Shown here piece after piece: positions 1 to 10,506 of a DNA stretch of 45,834 nt. The stretch is from positions 32,502 to 78,335 of the forward strand of contig DYSW01000005.1 of assembly GCA_020726285.1 (NCBI GenBank), in the 5' to 3' direction. The notes beneath the pieces are model-generated. The model made no database searches, had not been told where the DNA came from, and was given only the letters and a program-made list of their open reading frames with translations. The stretch's first letter is position 1, and each line of letters opens with the position of its first letter. This DNA is from Melioribacter roseus. GTDB taxonomy: Bacteria; Bacteroidota; Ignavibacteria; Ignavibacteriales; Melioribacteraceae. A program made the position numbers and the translations under genes.

Positions 1-227
1 TGTATTAACCTTCGTGGAATTTCTAAAGCTAATAATAAATGCTTGGTCATCACCTTATATTATTAGTAAATATGATGTGTTTATAGATTTTTCAATTCTT
101 GAAGTTGTTTAAGCTAAACAGAATATTTGATGGAAAGGTAATAATCATAATTGGCTTAGAATTTAATTAAATATTCGTCAGTTATTTTTTTGATTTAGTT
201 TTTGGTAAAATTCTTCTTTAAAATAAA
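1..227. other. Left-edge stretch without a recognisable gene
   Basis: A+T-rich DNA with no recognised gene. One plus-strand frame is open from the window edge (base 2) to a TAA at 110-112, giving about 36 residues. It could be the tail of a gene lying to the left, but it matches nothing I know and could equally be chance. No RNA gene or repeat is visible. Confidence 0.3.
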
Positions 228-253
228 AATAACCCCATGGGATTGGGGTTATT
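228..253 (-). terminator. Rho-independent terminator closing the lipid gene run
   Basis: A 9-bp perfect stem (AATAACCCC at 228-236 pairs with GGGGTTATT at 245-253) encloses an 8-nt loop. Read on the minus strand, the hairpin is followed by a T-rich tail (TTTTATTTT). It lies about 40 nt past the stop of the LpxH-like gene, so it probably ends the whole leftward transcript. Confidence 0.75.
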
Positions 254-290
254 CTAAAGCAAGTAATAGGAGTGAGTGAGTTACAAAAAT

Positions 291-1130
291 CTATTTAAAA
301 TCTCCGATGTGTACCGAAACTTCTTTTGCCATTTTGTCGGTAAAGCCGATGAAAGTCGCTGGATTAAGAGTCCAACTACCGGAATTAAAATATGTTATTC
401 CGTCTCTTTCAATTGTTTCGGCATGGTGTGTATGTCCACAAATTACAATATCAGCTTTTTGTTTTTTGGCATATAAAATTGCGCGGTTTCTTACAATTTC
501 AATATTTCTTAAAAATGCTTTTGAATTTCTTTTTAACCATGAACTTAATCGCATTCTTACAGGATCAACGTGAATGCTAAGTCTGTAAAGGTAATCGGCA
601 ATATCAGAAATAATTGGGTGTTTGCTTGTAAAAACATCAAAAACATCGCCGTGCAAAGTAAGAACTTTCTTTCCGTTCCAATCGAATGTGTATTCGTTAA
701 AAACTTTTATCCCAAGTAATTGAGTTAACAAATCGGAAAAACCATCATGATTTCCTCTAATCCAGATTACTTCTGCGTGATTTTCTCTGTCTGTTAATTT
801 TCTCAATTTCCCTAAAATTTTCCAATGCGATCTATTTAATCTTTGCATATTAATTGAATCAAATACATCGCCATTTATTATTAATCTATCAAAACTTATG
901 TTATTTAGAAAATCAAGTAACAATTCTGTTCTCGTTACATTGCTTCCAAGGTGAATATCACTAATTACAATTGTATTGAAATGTTTTACTGGTTCACCAA
1001 AATATTTTTCCCAAGTTGGCGATTTCTTTTCTTTGATGAAATCTTCAATAAACTTGTCGCTTTTTTCTTCGTGAACTAAATAACCAGATTCATAAACATT
1101 ATTAAATACTTTAAGATTTCCTTCGAACAT
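291..1130 (-). CDS. LpxH-like calcineurin-family metallophosphoesterase
   Basis: A 279-residue metallophosphoesterase. The family's dinuclear metal-site motifs appear in order: DIH (58-60), GDVFD (87-91), GNHD (126-129), HGD (160-162) and CGHTH (231-235). The spacing and the HGDVFD block resemble UDP-2,3-diacylglucosamine diphosphatase (LpxH/LpxH2), which cleaves the pyrophosphate of the lipid A precursor at the inner membrane. There is no signal peptide, so the protein is cytoplasmic or membrane-peripheral. It is the last gene of a leftward run of lipid-related genes, and its ATG overlaps the stop of a 47-residue ORF (TAATG). Family membership is clear. The substrate is inferred: it could be the lipid A intermediate or another lipid pyrophosphate or phosphate made by this locus. 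Confidence 0.85.
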   Translation of the reverse strand: MFEGNLKVFNNVYESGYLVHEEKSDKFIEDFIKEKKSPTWEKYFGEPVKHFNTIVISDIHLGSNVTRTELLLDFLNNISFDRLIINGDVFDSINMQRLNRSHWKILGKLRKLTDRENHAEVIWIRGNHDGFSDLLTQLLGIKVFNEYTFDWNGKKVLTLHGDVFDVFTSKHPIISDIADYLYRLSIHVDPVRMRLSSWLKRNSKAFLRNIEIVRNRAILYAKKQKADIVICGHTHHAETIERDGITYFNSGSWTLNPATFIGFTDKMAKEVSVHIGDFK

Positions 1131-1273
1131 TAAATTATTCCTTTTATTTTAACAAAAATTCTATCTAAACCGAATTTCAATAATGAAATGGTGAATTTTA
1201 GAAATGATTTTTTTCCAGGGAATAAATCACTTTGTTGTAAATTTAGAGCGGAATTTACTGTTTGTTGTAACAT
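1130..1273 (-). CDS. Small 47-residue protein nested between GT21 and LpxH-like genes
   Basis: I do not recognise this protein. An ATG at 1273-1271 opens 47 codons ending with TAA at 1132-1130. The start lies one base after the TAA of the upstream glycosyltransferase (TAA-A-ATG) and is preceded by AGGAG with ideal spacing. The stop overlaps the ATG of the downstream phosphoesterase (TAATG). This exact fit, with a ribosome site inside the upstream gene's end, is the pattern of a translationally coupled operon gene. The first half is polar (begins MLQQTV). The second half (residues about 22-47) alternates Lys/Arg with Leu/Ile/Phe, suggesting a basic amphipathic helix that could lie on a membrane. 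There is no signal peptide and no Cys. Its role is unknown; a regulator or partner of the neighbouring lipid enzymes is only a guess. Confidence 0.6.
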   Translation of the reverse strand: MLQQTVNSALNLQQSDLFPGKKSFLKFTISLLKFGLDRIFVKIKGII

Positions 1274-1274
1274 T

Positions 1275-2420
1275 TTATTCTCCTAATGCCGGTTCTAACA
1301 TCGACATTTTACCAATTTTTACTTTATTTTCTCGCCATTTAACTTTTCCGCTAACAAATGGAGTAATCCAAACGGCAACCATAGCCAAATCTTTTGGGAT
1401 TATTTGAAGAAATTGGAACCATTTAATATCGCTTTGTAAAATTTTTGCTGTTGCAAAATCAATTCCAATTTTGAATAATGTAACTGAAATAAATTGTTCA
1501 ATTCCTAAAACACTCCACATACTTAGCATTAAAATTAGGCTATTAAAAATCGGGTTAGCAAGAATTTCCATTATATAATGCGGAAAATCTATGTTTTTAC
1601 GCATTTTTGCCCAACGTGTGTGGCGATTGAAAAACTTTTCGAATGAAATATTTTCGTTTGGATTATCAACAATTGTAGTTGAATTTTTCACAATATAACC
1701 CGCTTCTTTTACCAATTTCCCAATCATAAAATCTTCAGCCAGATAATTTCTTAAACCAAATAAACCGCCTATTTCATCAAGAACTTTTATCGGCATCAAA
1801 ATTGCCTTTCCAACTACAATTTGAATATCTGCCATTGCTGATGAAAAAAAGATATTCGGTGCAATAAAATTGTTTAAATGAAGATTTTCCCAAATTGATG
1901 CTGTGTTTTTAGCCGAAGTTCCGCGAATTGTTGCGGTAATTGCTCCGACATTTTCTTCCGAATAAAAATCGGAGACTAATTTTGTTAGGAAATCTCTATT
2001 AACTTTTGTGTTGCTATCGCTAATAAGTATCATTTCTCCGCTAACTTGCTCGTACATATTGTACATGTTATTTACTTTTGGATTTAAGCCAAGTGCAAAG
2101 GAATCTATTACTAATTTACTTTCAATTTTTGTGTGTTTAGATTGAACTTTTTTTACTACTGAAATAACATTATCGGATTGAGATTGAACGCCAAAAATGA
2201 TATCGTAATTTGGATAATCTAATTCAAAAAATGAATTAAGATTTTCTTCGATGTTATCATCAATTCCTTTTAATGGTTTTAGGATTGTAACTTTTGGCGA
2301 GTAGTTGATGTGCTGAATTTGGTTTTTCATCTTATTTCTGAAGATAAAATACGCACCGAACAGATGAAGAATTCCTACGGAAATCATTGTTATTAAAACT
2401 ATTTCAATAATTGATTGCAT
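1275..2420 (-). CDS. Ceramide-glucosyltransferase-like glycosyltransferase (GT21 family)
   Basis: A 381-residue processive-type membrane glycosyltransferase. An N-terminal membrane segment (residues about 5-27) is followed by a GT-A catalytic domain with the D1-D2-D3 plus (Q/R)XXRW signature of glucosylceramide synthases: Asp54/55, DSN (135-137), ED (229-230) and RHTRW (266-270). C-terminal hydrophobic segments (about 290-360) follow. Known relatives transfer a hexose from UDP-sugar to ceramide, diacylglycerol or hopanoid lipids at the inner membrane. It lies 79 nt after the GH1 gene and one base before a small ORF, so it is probably co-transcribed. The acceptor lipid cannot be read from sequence; ceramide, diacylglycerol and an HpnI-type hopanoid role are all possible. 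Confidence 0.85.
   Translation of the reverse strand: MQSIIEIVLITMISVGILHLFGAYFIFRNKMKNQIQHINYSPKVTILKPLKGIDDNIEENLNSFFELDYPNYDIIFGVQSQSDNVISVVKKVQSKHTKIESKLVIDSFALGLNPKVNNMYNMYEQVSGEMILISDSNTKVNRDFLTKLVSDFYSEENVGAITATIRGTSAKNTASIWENLHLNNFIAPNIFFSSAMADIQIVVGKAILMPIKVLDEIGGLFGLRNYLAEDFMIGKLVKEAGYIVKNSTTIVDNPNENISFEKFFNRHTRWAKMRKNIDFPHYIMEILANPIFNSLILMLSMWSVLGIEQFISVTLFKIGIDFATAKILQSDIKWFQFLQIIPKDLAMVAVWITPFVSGKVKWRENKVKIGKMSMLEPALGE
1280..1284 (-). promoter_or_regulatory. Shine-Dalgarno site for the 47-residue ORF
   Basis: The minus strand reads TAGGAGAATAAAATG. AGGAG lies 6 nt before the ATG of the small ORF and inside the last codons of the glycosyltransferase gene. It is the main argument that the short frame is translated. 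Confidence 0.65.
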
Positions 2421-2499: not shown

Positions 2500-3759
2500 T
2501 TACATTTTTGTTACTATATCAATTATTCGTTTGTAATCTTTTCCGCTTGGTTTTAATTTTCGCAAATTCCCATTTTTATAGTCGACAAAAACAAGTCCGA
2601 AACGCTTTTCTTTTCCTTCTAACCATTCGTAGTTGTCGAATAAACTCCAATAAAAGTATCCTTTAATTTTTGCACCTATCGATAATTCCTTTTTCACTAC
2701 TTTAACATGATCATAAATATATTTAGTTCTTAAAATATCGTCCTGCGTTGCAATTCCATTTTCAGTTATATAAATATCTTTTTCAGTTGATTTTACAAGT
2801 CTGATAATTTCTTTCAATCCTTTTGAATAAATTTCCCAACCCATATCAGTTTGCTGTTTTTTGAAATAAATATAAATAGGCGATTTGATACTAAATCTGA
2901 ATTTTACATGTAATCTGTAATAATAATTTATTCCCCAAAAATCAATTTTATCGTTTAATTCTATTTTCTTTTTATAACTAATTAGAGGTGGGAACTGAAA
3001 ACTTAATTCGTTTTTTTTGAACGCTTCAAGAAAAATTTTATTAAAATAAGTGTTCACTCTGTTTACTAAACCTTTATCAAAAAGGGAAAAAGTATTGCTT
3101 TCCTTAAAAACAATAAAATGTTTGGCTATTCCAACTTGTGCTTCGGGTCTTTTTGCTTTGATATAATCATAAACGCAAACATGCGCTTGCATCATATTGT
3201 AAAGAACTTCCATTGTTTGCGAAAGTTTTGCTTTTGCAGGAGGAAATTTCCCGGCACCATAAGCAGCCAAAGCCCAAACAACTGGTTCATTAAATGTTAC
3301 CCATAAATTGATTTTGTCAATAAATTTATCAACAATTAATCTAGAAAATTTGCAAAACGATTGAATTACAGAACTTTCATTCCATGGCGATATTTCGTGC
3401 AACCAAATTGGATTTGAAAAATGATGAAGTGTTAACATTGGTTCAATATTATTTTCCAACAAGAAATCAATCATTTGTTCATATTGCAAAATTGCAGAAT
3501 AATCAATTTTGTCTGGTTCAGGAAAAATTCTTGCCCACTCTATTGAAAATCTGTAGGAATTTGCACCAGTTTGTTTGATAAATTCAAAATCATTTCTCCA
3601 ATTTTTCCAATGGTCAATTCCATTATTATAAAGAATTTCTTTATCTGATTTTTTGAATAATCCTAATCGTTCCCATTCAGTAAAATCGTTTTGAATATCA
3701 CCTTCAATCTGAAACGCAGATGTAGAAACTCCCCAAAGGAAATCATTCGGAAAACTCAT
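2500..3759 (-). CDS. Glycoside hydrolase family 1 (beta-glycosidase)
   Basis: A 419-residue (beta/alpha)8 barrel enzyme of GH1. The N-terminal signature FPNDFLWG is followed by the acid/base motif TFNEP (155-159, Glu158) and the nucleophile motif ITENG (331-335, Glu333). A C-terminal WSLFDNYEW segment lines the sugar-binding site. Both catalytic glutamates are present, so it should be an active retaining beta-glycosidase. It has no signal peptide and is predicted cytoplasmic. Its ATG directly abuts the TAG of the PAP2 gene (TAG|ATG), implying translational coupling. The lipid-gene setting suggests it may act on a glycolipid or its headgroup and not on dietary sugar; that is inference, and family 1 specificities (glucoside, galactoside, 6-phospho-sugar) are not resolved. 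Confidence 0.9.
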   Translation of the reverse strand: MSFPNDFLWGVSTSAFQIEGDIQNDFTEWERLGLFKKSDKEILYNNGIDHWKNWRNDFEFIKQTGANSYRFSIEWARIFPEPDKIDYSAILQYEQMIDFLLENNIEPMLTLHHFSNPIWLHEISPWNESSVIQSFCKFSRLIVDKFIDKINLWVTFNEPVVWALAAYGAGKFPPAKAKLSQTMEVLYNMMQAHVCVYDYIKAKRPEAQVGIAKHFIVFKESNTFSLFDKGLVNRVNTYFNKIFLEAFKKNELSFQFPPLISYKKKIELNDKIDFWGINYYYRLHVKFRFSIKSPIYIYFKKQQTDMGWEIYSKGLKEIIRLVKSTEKDIYITENGIATQDDILRTKYIYDHVKVVKKELSIGAKIKGYFYWSLFDNYEWLEGKEKRFGLVFVDYKNGNLRKLKPSGKDYKRIIDIVTKM

Positions 3760-4299
3760 CTAAAAAACTATCCACAACCCAAATTGTGCTGAATAAAGAC
3801 CTAAAATAATTCCAAATAAAACATCAGTTGGAAAATGAACACGTAAATAAATTCTTGAAATTCCAGTTAAAATTGCCCAAATGTACAAAACCGAAGTTAA
3901 ATCAGAAAATTGATGAGAAAGAATAGCCGCAACAAGAAATGCTGCTGCTGTATGGCCAGAAGGAAAACTATATTTGTCGGGTGGTTGAATCAAATGATTT
4001 AAATTTTCAACTTTATCAAAAGGTCGCATTCTTCTAAATGAATTTTTAACGATTTTATAGATTGATAGTTCAATTGCAAATGCGGCGAGTAACGCGATTC
4101 CATAATCAATTCCTTCAGAACCTAATAGGAAGATTTCAATTATTCCTATTATTCCATAAAGATAACCATCGCCAACTTTTGTTAATATCTTAAAAAATAC
4201 ACTCAGACTGATTTTTTCTTCAATTTTTGCAAGAAAAAGCAAAAATCTTAAATCGACTGCGAAGATATTGTTACCAATTATTTTTAAGTTATCTAACAT
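3760..4299 (-). CDS. PAP2-family membrane lipid phosphatase
   Basis: A 179-residue integral membrane phosphatase. The three PAP2 signature motifs are intact: KX6RP (Lys85 to Pro93), PSGH (113-116) and SRX5HX3D (Ser148, Arg149, His155, Asp159). His155 is the expected nucleophile and His116 the acid. Hydrophobic segments surround the motifs, placing the active site at the periplasmic face of the inner membrane. Relatives dephosphorylate phosphatidate, undecaprenyl pyrophosphate, phosphatidylglycerol phosphate or lipid A. It is the first gene of a leftward run (PAP2, GH1, GT21, small ORF, LpxH-like) and sits downstream of the terminator that follows the acyltransferase. The substrate is unknown, but the context favours a lipid phosphate feeding the glycosyltransferase. 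Confidence 0.9.
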   Translation of the reverse strand: MLDNLKIIGNNIFAVDLRFLLFLAKIEEKISLSVFFKILTKVGDGYLYGIIGIIEIFLLGSEGIDYGIALLAAFAIELSIYKIVKNSFRRMRPFDKVENLNHLIQPPDKYSFPSGHTAAAFLVAAILSHQFSDLTSVLYIWAILTGISRIYLRVHFPTDVLFGIILGLYSAQFGLWIVF

Positions 4300-4384
4300 A
4301 TTTTGTCCATTTTACCTTGCAAGTTTATTAAAACCTTGTTAACTATGTATTAACAGACTTTTAACAAACAATTAATGTAAAAAG

Positions 4385-4415
4385 TAAACCCGCAGATGTG
4401 AAAACCACGGGTTTA
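4385..4415 (-). terminator. Hairpin terminator after the OlsF-like gene
   Basis: TAAACCCG (4385-4392) pairs with CGGGTTTA (4408-4415) across a 15-nt loop. On the minus strand the stem is followed by CTTTTTA. It lies just past the acyltransferase stop and separates it from the PAP2 gene. Confidence 0.6.
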
Positions 4416-4436
4416 GTTGAAGTGAGATTGTGGGGT

Positions 4437-6248
4437 TTATATAATTTCAGTGTGAGAAAGTTCGATTTTTTTAGATAGAGCATTATGGTAATTATGATAA
4501 AGTATTATACCTTCGTTTGTAAAGTACTTAGCAAGTATTTTGGGGTCAGTTTTAAGTAAATCAACTACAATCATTCCATCTAAAGATGAATTAAAAAGTT
4601 CATCGCGGTTGAAACTTAAAAATTTAGCACCAAGTTTTAAGTATTGCTTAATTAAAATTGGAATTTTATCATGTAGCGGATCTATGTCGGTAATCAATTC
4701 CTCTAATTCGTGAATTTCATCAACACTTTTCCCTGTAACTTCGTTCAATTTTAACCTAAGTGTATCGCCACGTCTGGGTTTTACAAATGATTTTAATTCA
4801 TTATCATCATGATGTGTTTTGAGATATTCAATCATATATTTTTGTGAAAATGGATGATATGAATTGCTGATTGAAACAGGTCCGAAGAGAAATCTGTAAT
4901 TTGGGTGTTGAACAATAAACACTCCAATACCACGCCACAAAAGGAATAGTGAATTATGTTTTTTTTGATATTCAGCCGAAATAAATGAACGTCCCATTTC
5001 GATTGAAGGAGATATTTTGTTAAAAAACTTACTTTTTATTCTAAATAATGTGGTGATGTAGAATCCACTAATTCCAAATTTATTTATGATAGTTTCCGAA
5101 AGTCCGAGTCTATAAGCTCCAATAATTGCTTTGTTTGCAGAATCCCAAGCTACTAAATGAATGTAATGTTCGTCAAATTTATCCAAATCGATTGAAGTTC
5201 CAGTGCCTTCATTAACTAATCGAAATGTTTTTTCTCTTTCAATTCCGATTTGTGTAAGTAAATCTGGAATTTGGAACGAATATGAATAAAACACAAGAGA
5301 TTCTTTTTGTTTTAGAAGAATTTGATTTTGAGGGATTTTTTCAATCTCATCGCATAGTAAATCTGTTGGAATATCTTTTTGAATTTCTTCGTTTGAGATT
5401 GGCGAATTATCGTTTAGATTTTGGGATATTGAAACACCACGATATTTCAAATTGTATGTTCTTCGGCGTAAATAGTCTAACTTTTCATCAATTGAATTGT
5501 ATTTAGACAAAGTTGATGGCAAAATTTCATTTCCCACAAATACATTAAAGCGTTTATTTTGTTTATTAATTAGTTCAAACGGTAAACGTAATGTTCGTAA
5601 AACTGGATGAATAATGCCCATAATTTGAAATGCGACAGAATTCTGTCCATCAAAAAACATTGGAAATACAGGAACATTTAGTTTGTTGATTAATTTCCCA
5701 ATATTTGTTTTCCAAATTGGGTCAGTAATTTTATTTTTATGGATTTGATAATGAGAAACAACGCCAGCTGGAAAAATTACAAGTAATCCGCCATTTTGTA
5801 CATATTCAATTGCTTTTTTTAGCGCTTTAACATTCTCTTTAAGAGAATCTTTCCCTTCAAAAACATCTACAAAAATGAATTCATTTTCCAATTCAGGAAA
5901 TATTTTCAAAAAGCTATTTGCCAGAATTTTATAGTCTTTCCGAACTTTTTGTAGTATAGAACTAACAAACAAGCCTTCTATTCCACCAAATGGATGATTA
6001 GCGACAATAATTGCTCCACCATTTTTAGGGATTCTTGCGAGATCTGATTCTGAAAGAATTACAGAAACATTAAGAGTTTGTAGTGCTTGTTCTACAAAGT
6101 TATCATTAGATACAGAAACGATTTCGCTGTATTTTTTATCTAAATAATTAATTCCAATTAGCGCCGAAAAAAATTCGCCAATTGTGTTTCTTACAAAACC
6201 ATCTACCTTTAATAACCTAAAAAAGTTATCCTTAATAGAATAACGCAT
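4437..6248 (-). CDS. OlsF-like bifunctional acyltransferase (PlsC-type plus GNAT/hemolysin-type)
   Basis: A 603-residue fusion. Residues about 50-270 form a PlsC-like acyltransferase with the block-I motif NHPFGG (84-89) and a FPAG block (about 160). Residues about 310-540 form an acetyltransferase-like domain of the PF13444 (OlsB/hemolysin) type, with the MGRSFI and WRGIG blocks typical of that family. This order matches OlsF of Serratia and Flavobacterium, where one polypeptide N-acylates ornithine and then O-acylates the lyso-lipid to make ornithine lipid. Synthesis of an aminolipid at the inner membrane is therefore the likely role. Other two-domain acyltransferases of unknown substrate share this architecture, so the amino acid is inferred. 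It is transcribed alone, ahead of the PAP2-GH1-GT21 run. Confidence 0.8.
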   Translation of the reverse strand: MRYSIKDNFFRLLKVDGFVRNTIGEFFSALIGINYLDKKYSEIVSVSNDNFVEQALQTLNVSVILSESDLARIPKNGGAIIVANHPFGGIEGLFVSSILQKVRKDYKILANSFLKIFPELENEFIFVDVFEGKDSLKENVKALKKAIEYVQNGGLLVIFPAGVVSHYQIHKNKITDPIWKTNIGKLINKLNVPVFPMFFDGQNSVAFQIMGIIHPVLRTLRLPFELINKQNKRFNVFVGNEILPSTLSKYNSIDEKLDYLRRRTYNLKYRGVSISQNLNDNSPISNEEIQKDIPTDLLCDEIEKIPQNQILLKQKESLVFYSYSFQIPDLLTQIGIEREKTFRLVNEGTGTSIDLDKFDEHYIHLVAWDSANKAIIGAYRLGLSETIINKFGISGFYITTLFRIKSKFFNKISPSIEMGRSFISAEYQKKHNSLFLLWRGIGVFIVQHPNYRFLFGPVSISNSYHPFSQKYMIEYLKTHHDDNELKSFVKPRRGDTLRLKLNEVTGKSVDEIHELEELITDIDPLHDKIPILIKQYLKLGAKFLSFNRDELFNSSLDGMIVVDLLKTDPKILAKYFTNEGIILYHNYHNALSKKIELSHTEII

Positions 6249-7611: not shown

Positions 7612-10506
7612 TTATTTTATTAGAACCATTTTTCTTGTTTCTGAAAATAAACCACTTTGTAGTTTATAGAAATAAATTCCTGATGGTAAATTACTCGCAT
7701 TAAATTCAACTTTATAATTTCCTGCAGTAAGTGGTTTATTTAGTAATTCCACAACTTTCTGACCAAGTAAATTGTAAACTTGTAAAGAAGCCATTTTTTG
7801 AGTTTCTAAACTATTTGGAATTGAAAACTTAATTGTAGTTGTTGGATTAAATGGATTTGGATAATTCTGATGCAATGCAAATTTTGATGGAATTTCAGTT
7901 TCATCTGAATTTTCTACATAAGGTTTACCAATATCAACTAAATTAAAATCATCTAAATACCAACCAAGCTTTTCGATGCTTGAATCGGTACCAAAATCAA
8001 ATCTGAATTGAACGATATCTCCAGTATTCAAAATATTATTCAAAGTAAAAATCCCTTCCTTCCAAGTTGAAGTTTCACCTGTAAAAGCGGGTTCACCACC
8101 AATTGGATTTTCCCAACCAGTGCTAATTTCATCATCATAACCACCAACTGGCGTTATAATTTCAAATGCCCCATTATTGACAGACATTTTCACGTTTCCA
8201 CCATCATAACCGCTTTCAATTTGATACCAATGCCAAAATGTAAGTTGCGGATTCTCGCCAAAAACTGTGTAGCTTTCTGTTAATAATGAAGATAAAGTAA
8301 GTTCTGAATAATTTTCTAGTAAAACAGTTCCCCAAACAGTTGAACCACTGTGTGCCCCGGGAGTTGCATTCGGATTTCCCCATTGCCATTCGTTATCATA
8401 AGTGAAATTTCCGTTATCAAGTTCAAAATCTTCTGAAATTAATTCAAAAGCACCAATTTCGAATTCATAATTTCCATTTTCTGGAAGATTAACTACGTTT
8501 GGAATATTCGCAACGTCAGTAACAACAATTCGATATTGAATTAAATCTCCAATACTTACTTGATTGCTTTCGATTGGAAGAGTTCCAACAAAGTTCGAGT
8601 TTTTGGTTGAATTGAGTTCGAAAGAAATTACGGTGCCAGAATTTACTGAACAATAACCAACAACACTTAAAATACCGATGTTGTCTGTAGCGTTCACAGC
8701 AATTTGAATTGGAAATTGAGATAACGCAACAACTGAAATTGGTGTATGCGATACTTCAGGTTTTAATGTGTCTGCAGAAACTGAGAATGAAAAAAATTCA
8801 TTTGGTGCATTTGTTGGTAAATAGCTTGGAATATTTGATGAACTACTTCCTTTTAAATAATAATTTATAGTTGAATTTTCAAAACTTGGTAAAATTGCAC
8901 TATAAGTTGAACCAGAAACATAAGTAAACTGAACAGAATCTTTTGATTGGAAATTATCAGATGAAAAAATAACAAAGAGTGAACTAACTTCAACTCCAAG
9001 ATTTGAAGAAAAATCTGCCAAAATTTCATTTATTCTATTTGGATCTTCAGTATCAGAAAGTGGAGAATGCGAAATTTGAACTCGGAAATAATTTACTGCA
9101 TCAAGTGCATTTAAAATTCCCCAGCCGTATTCTCTATTTGGTGAAGTGCTATTATCTGCAGTTTCACGAAGTGCATCGCGAACTTGCATTGGTGTTAGAT
9201 TTGGATTTGCTCCAACAACCAAAGCCGCAACTCCAGCTGAAAGCGGACAACTGAATGAAGTTCCACTTGATGAAGTATAACTAGTTGAACTATATGGACT
9301 TGCGACATAAACACCTGAACCCATTGCCATAATATCTGGTTTGGTTCTTCCATCAATAGTATTTCCAACGCTGCTGAATCCTGTTCTTTCTCCATCAGAA
9401 TAAACAGCGCCAACTGCTATCACGCTATCGCCATCTGAAGGGGCGCCGAGTGTGTTGTGGGAATCATATCCTTCATTTCCTGCAGAATTTACAACAACAA
9501 TTCCTCGTTTTACAGCCAAATCTGCTCCAATTGTAATTGTTGCTGTATTTCCATCCATATCTTCCCAAGTATAACCAGGGTAACCGAAATCCATTCCGAT
9601 ATAACCGAGTGATGTTGAAGTTACATCAACGCCAATTGAATCTGCCCATTCAAGTGCTGCAATCCAATTATCTTCTTCTGCTGGAGTTTCAGAATCAGTA
9701 TTTTCTGTTTTTGCGAGAATAAAACTAGCACCGTATGCAGGTCCGATTAATTCTCCGTTTGCAAAACCTCCAATAGTCGATAAAGTTTCAGTTCCATGCG
9801 AACCTTCGCCCATATCATCTTCGTCATCAACATTGTTATCATTATTTACAAAATCATAAGAAGCGATAATATTCATATTGTTAAATGCTTCGTGTTCAAG
9901 ATTGTTGAAACCTGCATCGAAAACTCCAACCACAACACCTTGTGCGGAAAATCCCAATTGATGAACAGCTGGCACATTTATTTGCTGTAATTGTGTATAA
10001 GAAAAACCATAATCCAAATCCAAAGTGCCTTTTGGGACTGTTTTCTGTGGTTGAAATGATGAAGATTTTTCAGTATCTCTTTTATTCTTAAATAATTTTA
10101 CAATATCAATTTTCTTTACAAAATCGAGTTTGGCAATTTCTTCAACTTGTAATTTCGTTAAGTATGCAGTAATTGCGTTAAACCATTTTATTCGATGATG
10201 AATTTTTATCCCTTTTTCAGTCAATTTTGTAATGTAATTTTGATTGATTGGCAAATCATAATTATCAATCCAAGTATTTCCGCCACCAACTTTTGCACGG
10301 CGTTGTAATGATTTTTTACTAACAACTTGTTCTGGATTTGAAAAATATTTCAGATTATCTGAACCTTTGTCTGTTAGATAAATCCACACTTTTACTTCAT
10401 CATTTTTTGAGTGATTAAAATAATTGCGGAGATTTTCTGTGATTTTTACTTCTTGCGACCAGACAACTGAAATCATTAATAAGTAAAATAATGCTATTTT
10501 TTTCAT
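7612..10506 (-). CDS. Secreted subtilisin-like serine protease with T9SS type-A sorting tail
   Basis: The start is set at 10506 (964 residues). From there a clean signal peptide begins (MKKIALFYLLMISVVWSQ) behind an AAGG site; the longer frame would run into the upstream PhoH gene. An inhibitor-like propeptide (about 20-135) precedes an S8 catalytic domain with Asp197, His237 (GSHGT), oxyanion Asn343 and Ser417 (GTSFSCP). All triad residues are present. Then come Ig-like beta segments, a MAM/immune-inhibitor-like jelly-roll (about 685-850), and an 80-residue tail starting YPNPFNPTT and ending KMVLIK, the form recognised by the type IX secretion system. The mature protease is expected on the cell surface or released. 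Probable role: extracellular protein degradation. Confidence 0.92.
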   Translation of the reverse strand: MKKIALFYLLMISVVWSQEVKITENLRNYFNHSKNDEVKVWIYLTDKGSDNLKYFSNPEQVVSKKSLQRRAKVGGGNTWIDNYDLPINQNYITKLTEKGIKIHHRIKWFNAITAYLTKLQVEEIAKLDFVKKIDIVKLFKNKRDTEKSSSFQPQKTVPKGTLDLDYGFSYTQLQQINVPAVHQLGFSAQGVVVGVFDAGFNNLEHEAFNNMNIIASYDFVNNDNNVDDEDDMGEGSHGTETLSTIGGFANGELIGPAYGASFILAKTENTDSETPAEEDNWIAALEWADSIGVDVTSTSLGYIGMDFGYPGYTWEDMDGNTATITIGADLAVKRGIVVVNSAGNEGYDSHNTLGAPSDGDSVIAVGAVYSDGERTGFSSVGNTIDGRTKPDIMAMGSGVYVASPYSSTSYTSSSGTSFSCPLSAGVAALVVGANPNLTPMQVRDALRETADNSTSPNREYGWGILNALDAVNYFRVQISHSPLSDTEDPNRINEILADFSSNLGVEVSSLFVIFSSDNFQSKDSVQFTYVSGSTYSAILPSFENSTINYYLKGSSSSNIPSYLPTNAPNEFFSFSVSADTLKPEVSHTPISVVALSQFPIQIAVNATDNIGILSVVGYCSVNSGTVISFELNSTKNSNFVGTLPIESNQVSIGDLIQYRIVVTDVANIPNVVNLPENGNYEFEIGAFELISEDFELDNGNFTYDNEWQWGNPNATPGAHSGSTVWGTVLLENYSELTLSSLLTESYTVFGENPQLTFWHWYQIESGYDGGNVKMSVNNGAFEIITPVGGYDDEISTGWENPIGGEPAFTGETSTWKEGIFTLNNILNTGDIVQFRFDFGTDSSIEKLGWYLDDFNLVDIGKPYVENSDETEIPSKFALHQNYPNPFNPTTTIKFSIPNSLETQKMASLQVYNLLGQKVVELLNKPLTAGNYKVEFNASNLPSGIYFYKLQSGLFSETRKMVLIK

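Follow-up and report, generated by a model that had tools for sequence, protein, structure and literature searches.

The window examined here (a stretch of 45,834 nucleotides from Melioribacter roseus, contig DYSW01000005.1 of assembly GCA_020726285.1) contains near its beginning an operon-like run of minus-strand genes in the order PAP2-GH1-GT21-ORF-PE, where ORF stands for a 47-codon open reading frame at the junction between a GT21 glycosyltransferase gene and a phosphoesterase (PE) gene. Read 5' to 3' along the minus strand, its features are:

3760..4299 (-): PAP2 phosphatase gene (PF01569, 87 bits), abutting the GH1 gene
2500..3759 (-): glycoside hydrolase family 1 (GH1) gene (PF00232, 294 bits), part of the operon-like run
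1275..2420 (-): HpnI-like GT21 glycosyltransferase gene, 381 aa (Pfam PF13506, 129 bits; TIGR03472, 227.8 bits against a cut-off of 310)
1280..1284 (-): AGGAG, Shine-Dalgarno-like site of the ORF, from sequence and present also in G001, a metagenome-assembled genome of the same genus
1130..1273 (-): 47-codon ORF, 47 aa (MLQQTVNSALNLQQSDLFPGKKSFLKFTISLLKFGLDRIFVKIKGII), probably belonging, in shortened form, to a family of small membrane proteins linked to GT21
1139..1143 (-): AAGGA, Shine-Dalgarno-like site of the PE gene, from sequence, lying inside the ORF
291..1130 (-): calcineurin-like phosphoesterase (PE) gene, 279 aa, LpxH/YfcE-like but below the family cut-offs
226..255 (-): terminator-like hairpin with a 12-pair stem and a T-rich tail, directly 3' of the PE gene

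The operon probably ends at this hairpin. A gene for an OlsF-like bifunctional acyltransferase with GlsA- and GlsB-like halves (window 4437-6248, minus strand; 378 bits against a cut-off of 620) lies upstream of the PAP2-GH1-GT21 run and points to ornithine- or glycine-type aminolipids beside the glycolipid genes. It is separated from the PAP2 gene by an intergenic inverted repeat (window 4300-4436; AAACCCGCAGATGTGAAAACCACGGGTTT), possibly a terminator. The GH1 gene (window 2500-3759) makes for an odd combination, a sugar-removing enzyme sharing a run with the sugar-adding GT21, and GH1-like genes likewise adjoin GT21 and phosphoesterase genes at two Calditrichota loci (L056 and L057). Elsewhere, a large secreted subtilisin-like protein has a C-terminal end (window 7612-7885) with matches at several sites of the G001 contig, as expected for a shared secretion-sorting domain.

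The sequence-only reading of this DNA had proposed an overlooked small gene in the GT21-PE slot on the basis of four features, all of which are present on the minus strand: 1) a GT21 stop and an ORF start that lie a single base apart (TAA-A-ATG, GT21 ending at 1275 and the ATG beginning at 1273); 2) the AGGAG 6 nt 5' of this ATG, within the final GT21 codons (TTA GGA GAA TAA); 3) an open frame of 47 codons; 4) an overlap of the ORF stop with the PE start, the final A of the TAA being common to both (TAATG). The opposite, plus strand contains many stops over the same span. Dinucleotide shuffling of the inner 138 nt between a fixed start and a fixed stop leaves the frame open in 3.1% of cases, a figure that precedes any demand for a length divisible by three or for flanking signals; the length of the ORF is thus uncommon, which on its own is not decisive. 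In codon usage it ranks at the 19th percentile of windows from real genes and, among spurious ORFs, would stand in the top 5-6%; the protein has no match in Pfam or NCBIfam. A frameshifted remnant encoded in alternative frames was considered and rejected, as stops interrupt both of the other frames and neither has an obvious membrane stretch.

When relatives were searched with the 47 residues, a single close ortholog emerged, in G001, which is 87% identical, has identical junctions and shows no indels in 144 nt; beyond it there was only noise, and phage and plasmid records yielded nothing meaningful. The window and G001 ORFs differ by 10 substitutions in 144 nt, distributed 3/3/4 over the codon positions, and 6 of the 10 alter the protein, with S8F, P19T, T28I and D37V being non-conservative. 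The substitutions had been expected to be mainly synonymous if the gene were real, and between these two genomes the opposite is seen. In the neighbouring genes about 69% of changes are at third positions, against which four or fewer of ten in the ORF has a P of 0.05. The dN/dS between window and G001 is 0.05 for PE, 0.14 for GT21 and about 0.37 for the ORF, where, on ten changes, it is indistinguishable from neutrality in an underpowered two-sequence test. Divergence of the ORF (7.0%) does not differ from that of nearby intergenic DNA (9.7%; P 0.38), and in 58% of cases ten randomly placed substitutions do not close the frame. Given the missing third-position bias, a dN/dS not separable from neutrality and the intergenic level of divergence, this pair does not demonstrate coding selection. 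The frame, the Shine-Dalgarno site and both junctions are nevertheless kept in the two species, whose neighbouring genes are 13-17% diverged at third positions.

In six other Melioribacteraceae (G061, G022, G098, G060, G071 and G039) PE lies within about 40 nt of GT21 with no ORF between them, and in three further genomes of the same genus (G002-G004) neither GT21 nor PE was matched. Relatives lacking the frame had been named beforehand as what would speak against a gene, and taken literally these six are such relatives; yet their direct junctions can also be read as losses. Near relatives alone would have branded the ORF spurious, and it was by tracing the neighbouring enzyme into other phyla that a family came into view.

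Loci were gathered through a phosphoesterase profile and then through GT21, into Calditrichota and KSB1. In Calditrichota and one KSB1 genome a small protein of 54-76 aa is encoded directly behind GT21 at eight loci (L054, L055, L056, L057, L060, L096, L098 and L099), often in the GT21-PE interval, on the same strand and at offsets of about 0 to 68. The eight members form a near-gapless alignment with invariant M1, N8, L11, N12 and L39, leave-one-out profiles give each of them 29-57 bits, and synonymous differences exceed nonsynonymous ones in the pairs tested. They share an N-terminal helix with an N-x-x-L-N motif, followed after a short turn by a single helix of membrane type, the last residue of which is usually acidic. 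Among 40 Calditrichota genomes, nine have GT21, and the family (E < 1e-17) occurs in seven of these, always adjoining GT21, and in none of the 31 genomes without it (Fisher P 1.9e-6). Four of the eight loci (L057, L096, L098 and L099) have the small gene behind GT21 with no LpxH-like phosphoesterase found after it; the linkage is therefore to GT21 and not to the LpxH-like enzyme. KSB1 genomes beyond G124 had neither the phosphoesterase nor the small family, a class-wide search returned more distant GT21s without such a small gene behind them, and in 97 relatives the family was met elsewhere only as partial, helix-only matches. A distant ninth member (L130:1471-1677, minus strand; profile-pair P 1e-7) lies behind genes for a GT4-type glycosyltransferase and PAP2 rather than GT21, a context suggesting that the small protein can accompany another glycosyltransferase. 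Full-length members gave only sub-threshold matches in Pfam and NCBIfam and none in PHROGs or among PDB chains, and a literature search found no description of a GT21-linked small family. Judged from these comparisons, the predicted one-helix proteins behind GT21 are an undescribed family, covered by none of the curated families searched.

Several lines of evidence connect the window ORF to this family. It carries all five invariant columns (M, N, L, N, L) in order, the last four as N7, L10, N11 and L31. The motif M-x(3,7)-N-x-x-L-N occurs in 8 of 8 members and in both window-clade ORFs, as against 1 of 734 null ORFs and 0.09% of shuffles (P ~0.0009), the mean similarity of the window ORF to the family has a P of 0.0005-0.01, and a separate profile-pair comparison gives P 0.0009 with the register unchanged; these tests are mutually non-independent, and the motif was spotted by eye before testing, with the columns fixed from the family alone. 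The slot agrees as well, the ORF lying directly behind GT21 on the same strand at an offset of +1 with a Shine-Dalgarno-like site at the GT21 end, and its junction anatomy recurs in the family: L060 starts on the GT21 stop (TAAATG) and L055 overlaps the next start. Further likenesses are the N-x-x-L-N near the N terminus, an aromatic-G-hydrophobic pattern near the helix end and a predicted helix-turn-helix. The predicted structures of L054 and the window ORF share this outline at low confidence (pLDDT 69-71), and the agreement is not independent, since the alignment used for the window prediction contained the family. On the other side, the ORF has 47 rather than 54-76 aa, lacking seven membrane-helix residues, which the alignment bridges with a 7-residue gap, and one residue near the N terminus, and its profile score is at noise level: the full-family HMM gives it 5.6 bits, rank 12 among about 736 and below the best null ORF (10.2), where true members score 29-57. 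In the window's own genome the family profile has no match at E 0.01. Taken together, membership is supported but not proven, and we regard descent of the window ORF from the GT21-linked family as likely.

The comparison also bears on the character of the protein. Its C-terminal half had been described as a basic amphipathic stretch that might lie on a membrane surface; the basic character holds, but the amphipathicity is ordinary, with 37% of random ORFs equalling or exceeding the maximal hydrophobic moment of the whole ORF and 38% of its own shuffles reaching that of the C-terminal half. A surface-lying amphipathic helix is thus not borne out, and the relatives have instead one hydrophobic helix of membrane type. 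For the transmembrane helix of about 20 residues expected of a family member, the maximal hydropathy declines from 1.9-2.8 in the family to 1.83 in the G001 ortholog and 1.18 in the window ORF, the helix of which is shorter and less hydrophobic than that of the family and has K and D within it. In the GT21 tree the window clade groups with the ORF-less Melioribacteraceae (99/97), and their joint fork with the family-bearing Calditrichota GT21s has support of 92/95. One reading of this is a simple history in which the family would have been present in the ancestor that these GT21s share, lost in the sister lineages and shortened in the window genus; alternatively, it may have been transferred with the operon.

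In light of the same-genus ortholog, the gene-like codon usage and the small-protein family in the equivalent slot in other phyla, the proposal of an overlooked small gene gains support, and we consider the ORF at 1130..1273 to be a real small gene, probably once functional and possibly functional still. The explanation that we favour, with the balance of chances about even, is that it is a translated gene of the PAP2-GH1-GT21-ORF-PE operon from the GT21-linked family, that this family supplies an accessory or regulatory subunit of GT21, and that the window copy is shortened and weakly constrained.

The relaxed constraint makes decay a serious rival, one that we hold to be rather unlikely: the ORF would derive from the same family, a working protein would no longer be made, and the locus would be heading for the direct GT21-PE junction of the six sister genomes. 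The shortened, less hydrophobic helix with its internal K and D, the lack of third-position bias with four non-conservative replacements, and the absence of the slot from the sister lineages all fit such a remnant, as does a frame that chance would often have left open anyway; what it accounts for less well is that frame, Shine-Dalgarno site and both junctions are intact in two species in spite of the third-position divergence of their neighbours, with codon usage still gene-like and no indel. A chance or lineage-specific spacer ORF from outside the family, serving at most the translational coupling of PE to GT21 with the peptide sequence being irrelevant, appears unlikely to us. While the weak family-profile score, the likelihood that AT-rich sequence of this kind stays open, the intergenic level of divergence and the TAATG overlap would all be compatible with a spacer, it leaves unexplained the invariant columns and motif kept in order, the gene-like codon usage and the match of slot and junction anatomy with family members; moreover, PE has its own Shine-Dalgarno-like site, so that coupling is not obviously required. 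A reading of the stretch as an RNA element and not a gene (a leader, an attenuator or a regulatory structure), which would suit substitutions that fall on all codon positions in the manner of non-coding DNA, was rejected as highly improbable, there being no Rfam match and folding no better than that of shuffles (z -0.1).

Returning to the favoured reading of a translated GT21-linked small gene, a protein with one helix whose gene adjoins and co-occurs with that of a membrane glycosyltransferase would most simply be an accessory or regulatory subunit of the enzyme. We propose that the small protein would be translated, inserted into the membrane and bound to GT21, the family most likely serving this membrane-bound enzyme as a bitopic subunit, accessory or regulatory, with translational coupling keeping its output in step with that of GT21. 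In the window genus, where about seven residues of the membrane helix appear to have been lost and constraint is weak, its activity may be reduced. The earlier suggestion of a small partner or regulator of glycolipid enzymes is reasonable by inference in so far as it concerns GT21; its extension to the LpxH-like enzyme does not survive the four loci at which no PE was found behind the small gene. More tentatively, in Calditrichota, KSB1 and some Ignavibacteria alike the one-helix family could serve a GT21 glycolipid synthase as a subunit, either obligate or regulatory, with the window representing its miniaturisation or loss while the enzyme is kept. The object of interest is accordingly the GT21-linked family more than the window copy.

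What is known of GT21 enzymes comes largely from ceramide glucosyltransferase, HpnI and processive glycolipid synthases. If the small proteins are subunits of GT21, these enzymes gain a small partner such as other membrane glycosyltransferases have. IcaD and PgaD are small membrane partners of the GT2 synthases IcaA and PgaC; they resemble what is proposed for the window protein in being small membrane partners in an operon for a membrane glycosyltransferase, and differ from it in being larger, in having two membrane helices and in having a polysaccharide synthase as partner. A precedent for control by a small protein is HfiA of Caulobacter crescentus, with 65-68 aa, which binds and inhibits the glycosyltransferase HfsJ (PMC3900383). 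HfiA has a long hydrophobic stretch, no known domain and a cell-envelope glycosyltransferase as its target (PMC3900383), and is likened to the family in mode and not in descent. Its target HfsJ is of the WecG/TagA type, unlike GT21, to which we infer that the family binds.
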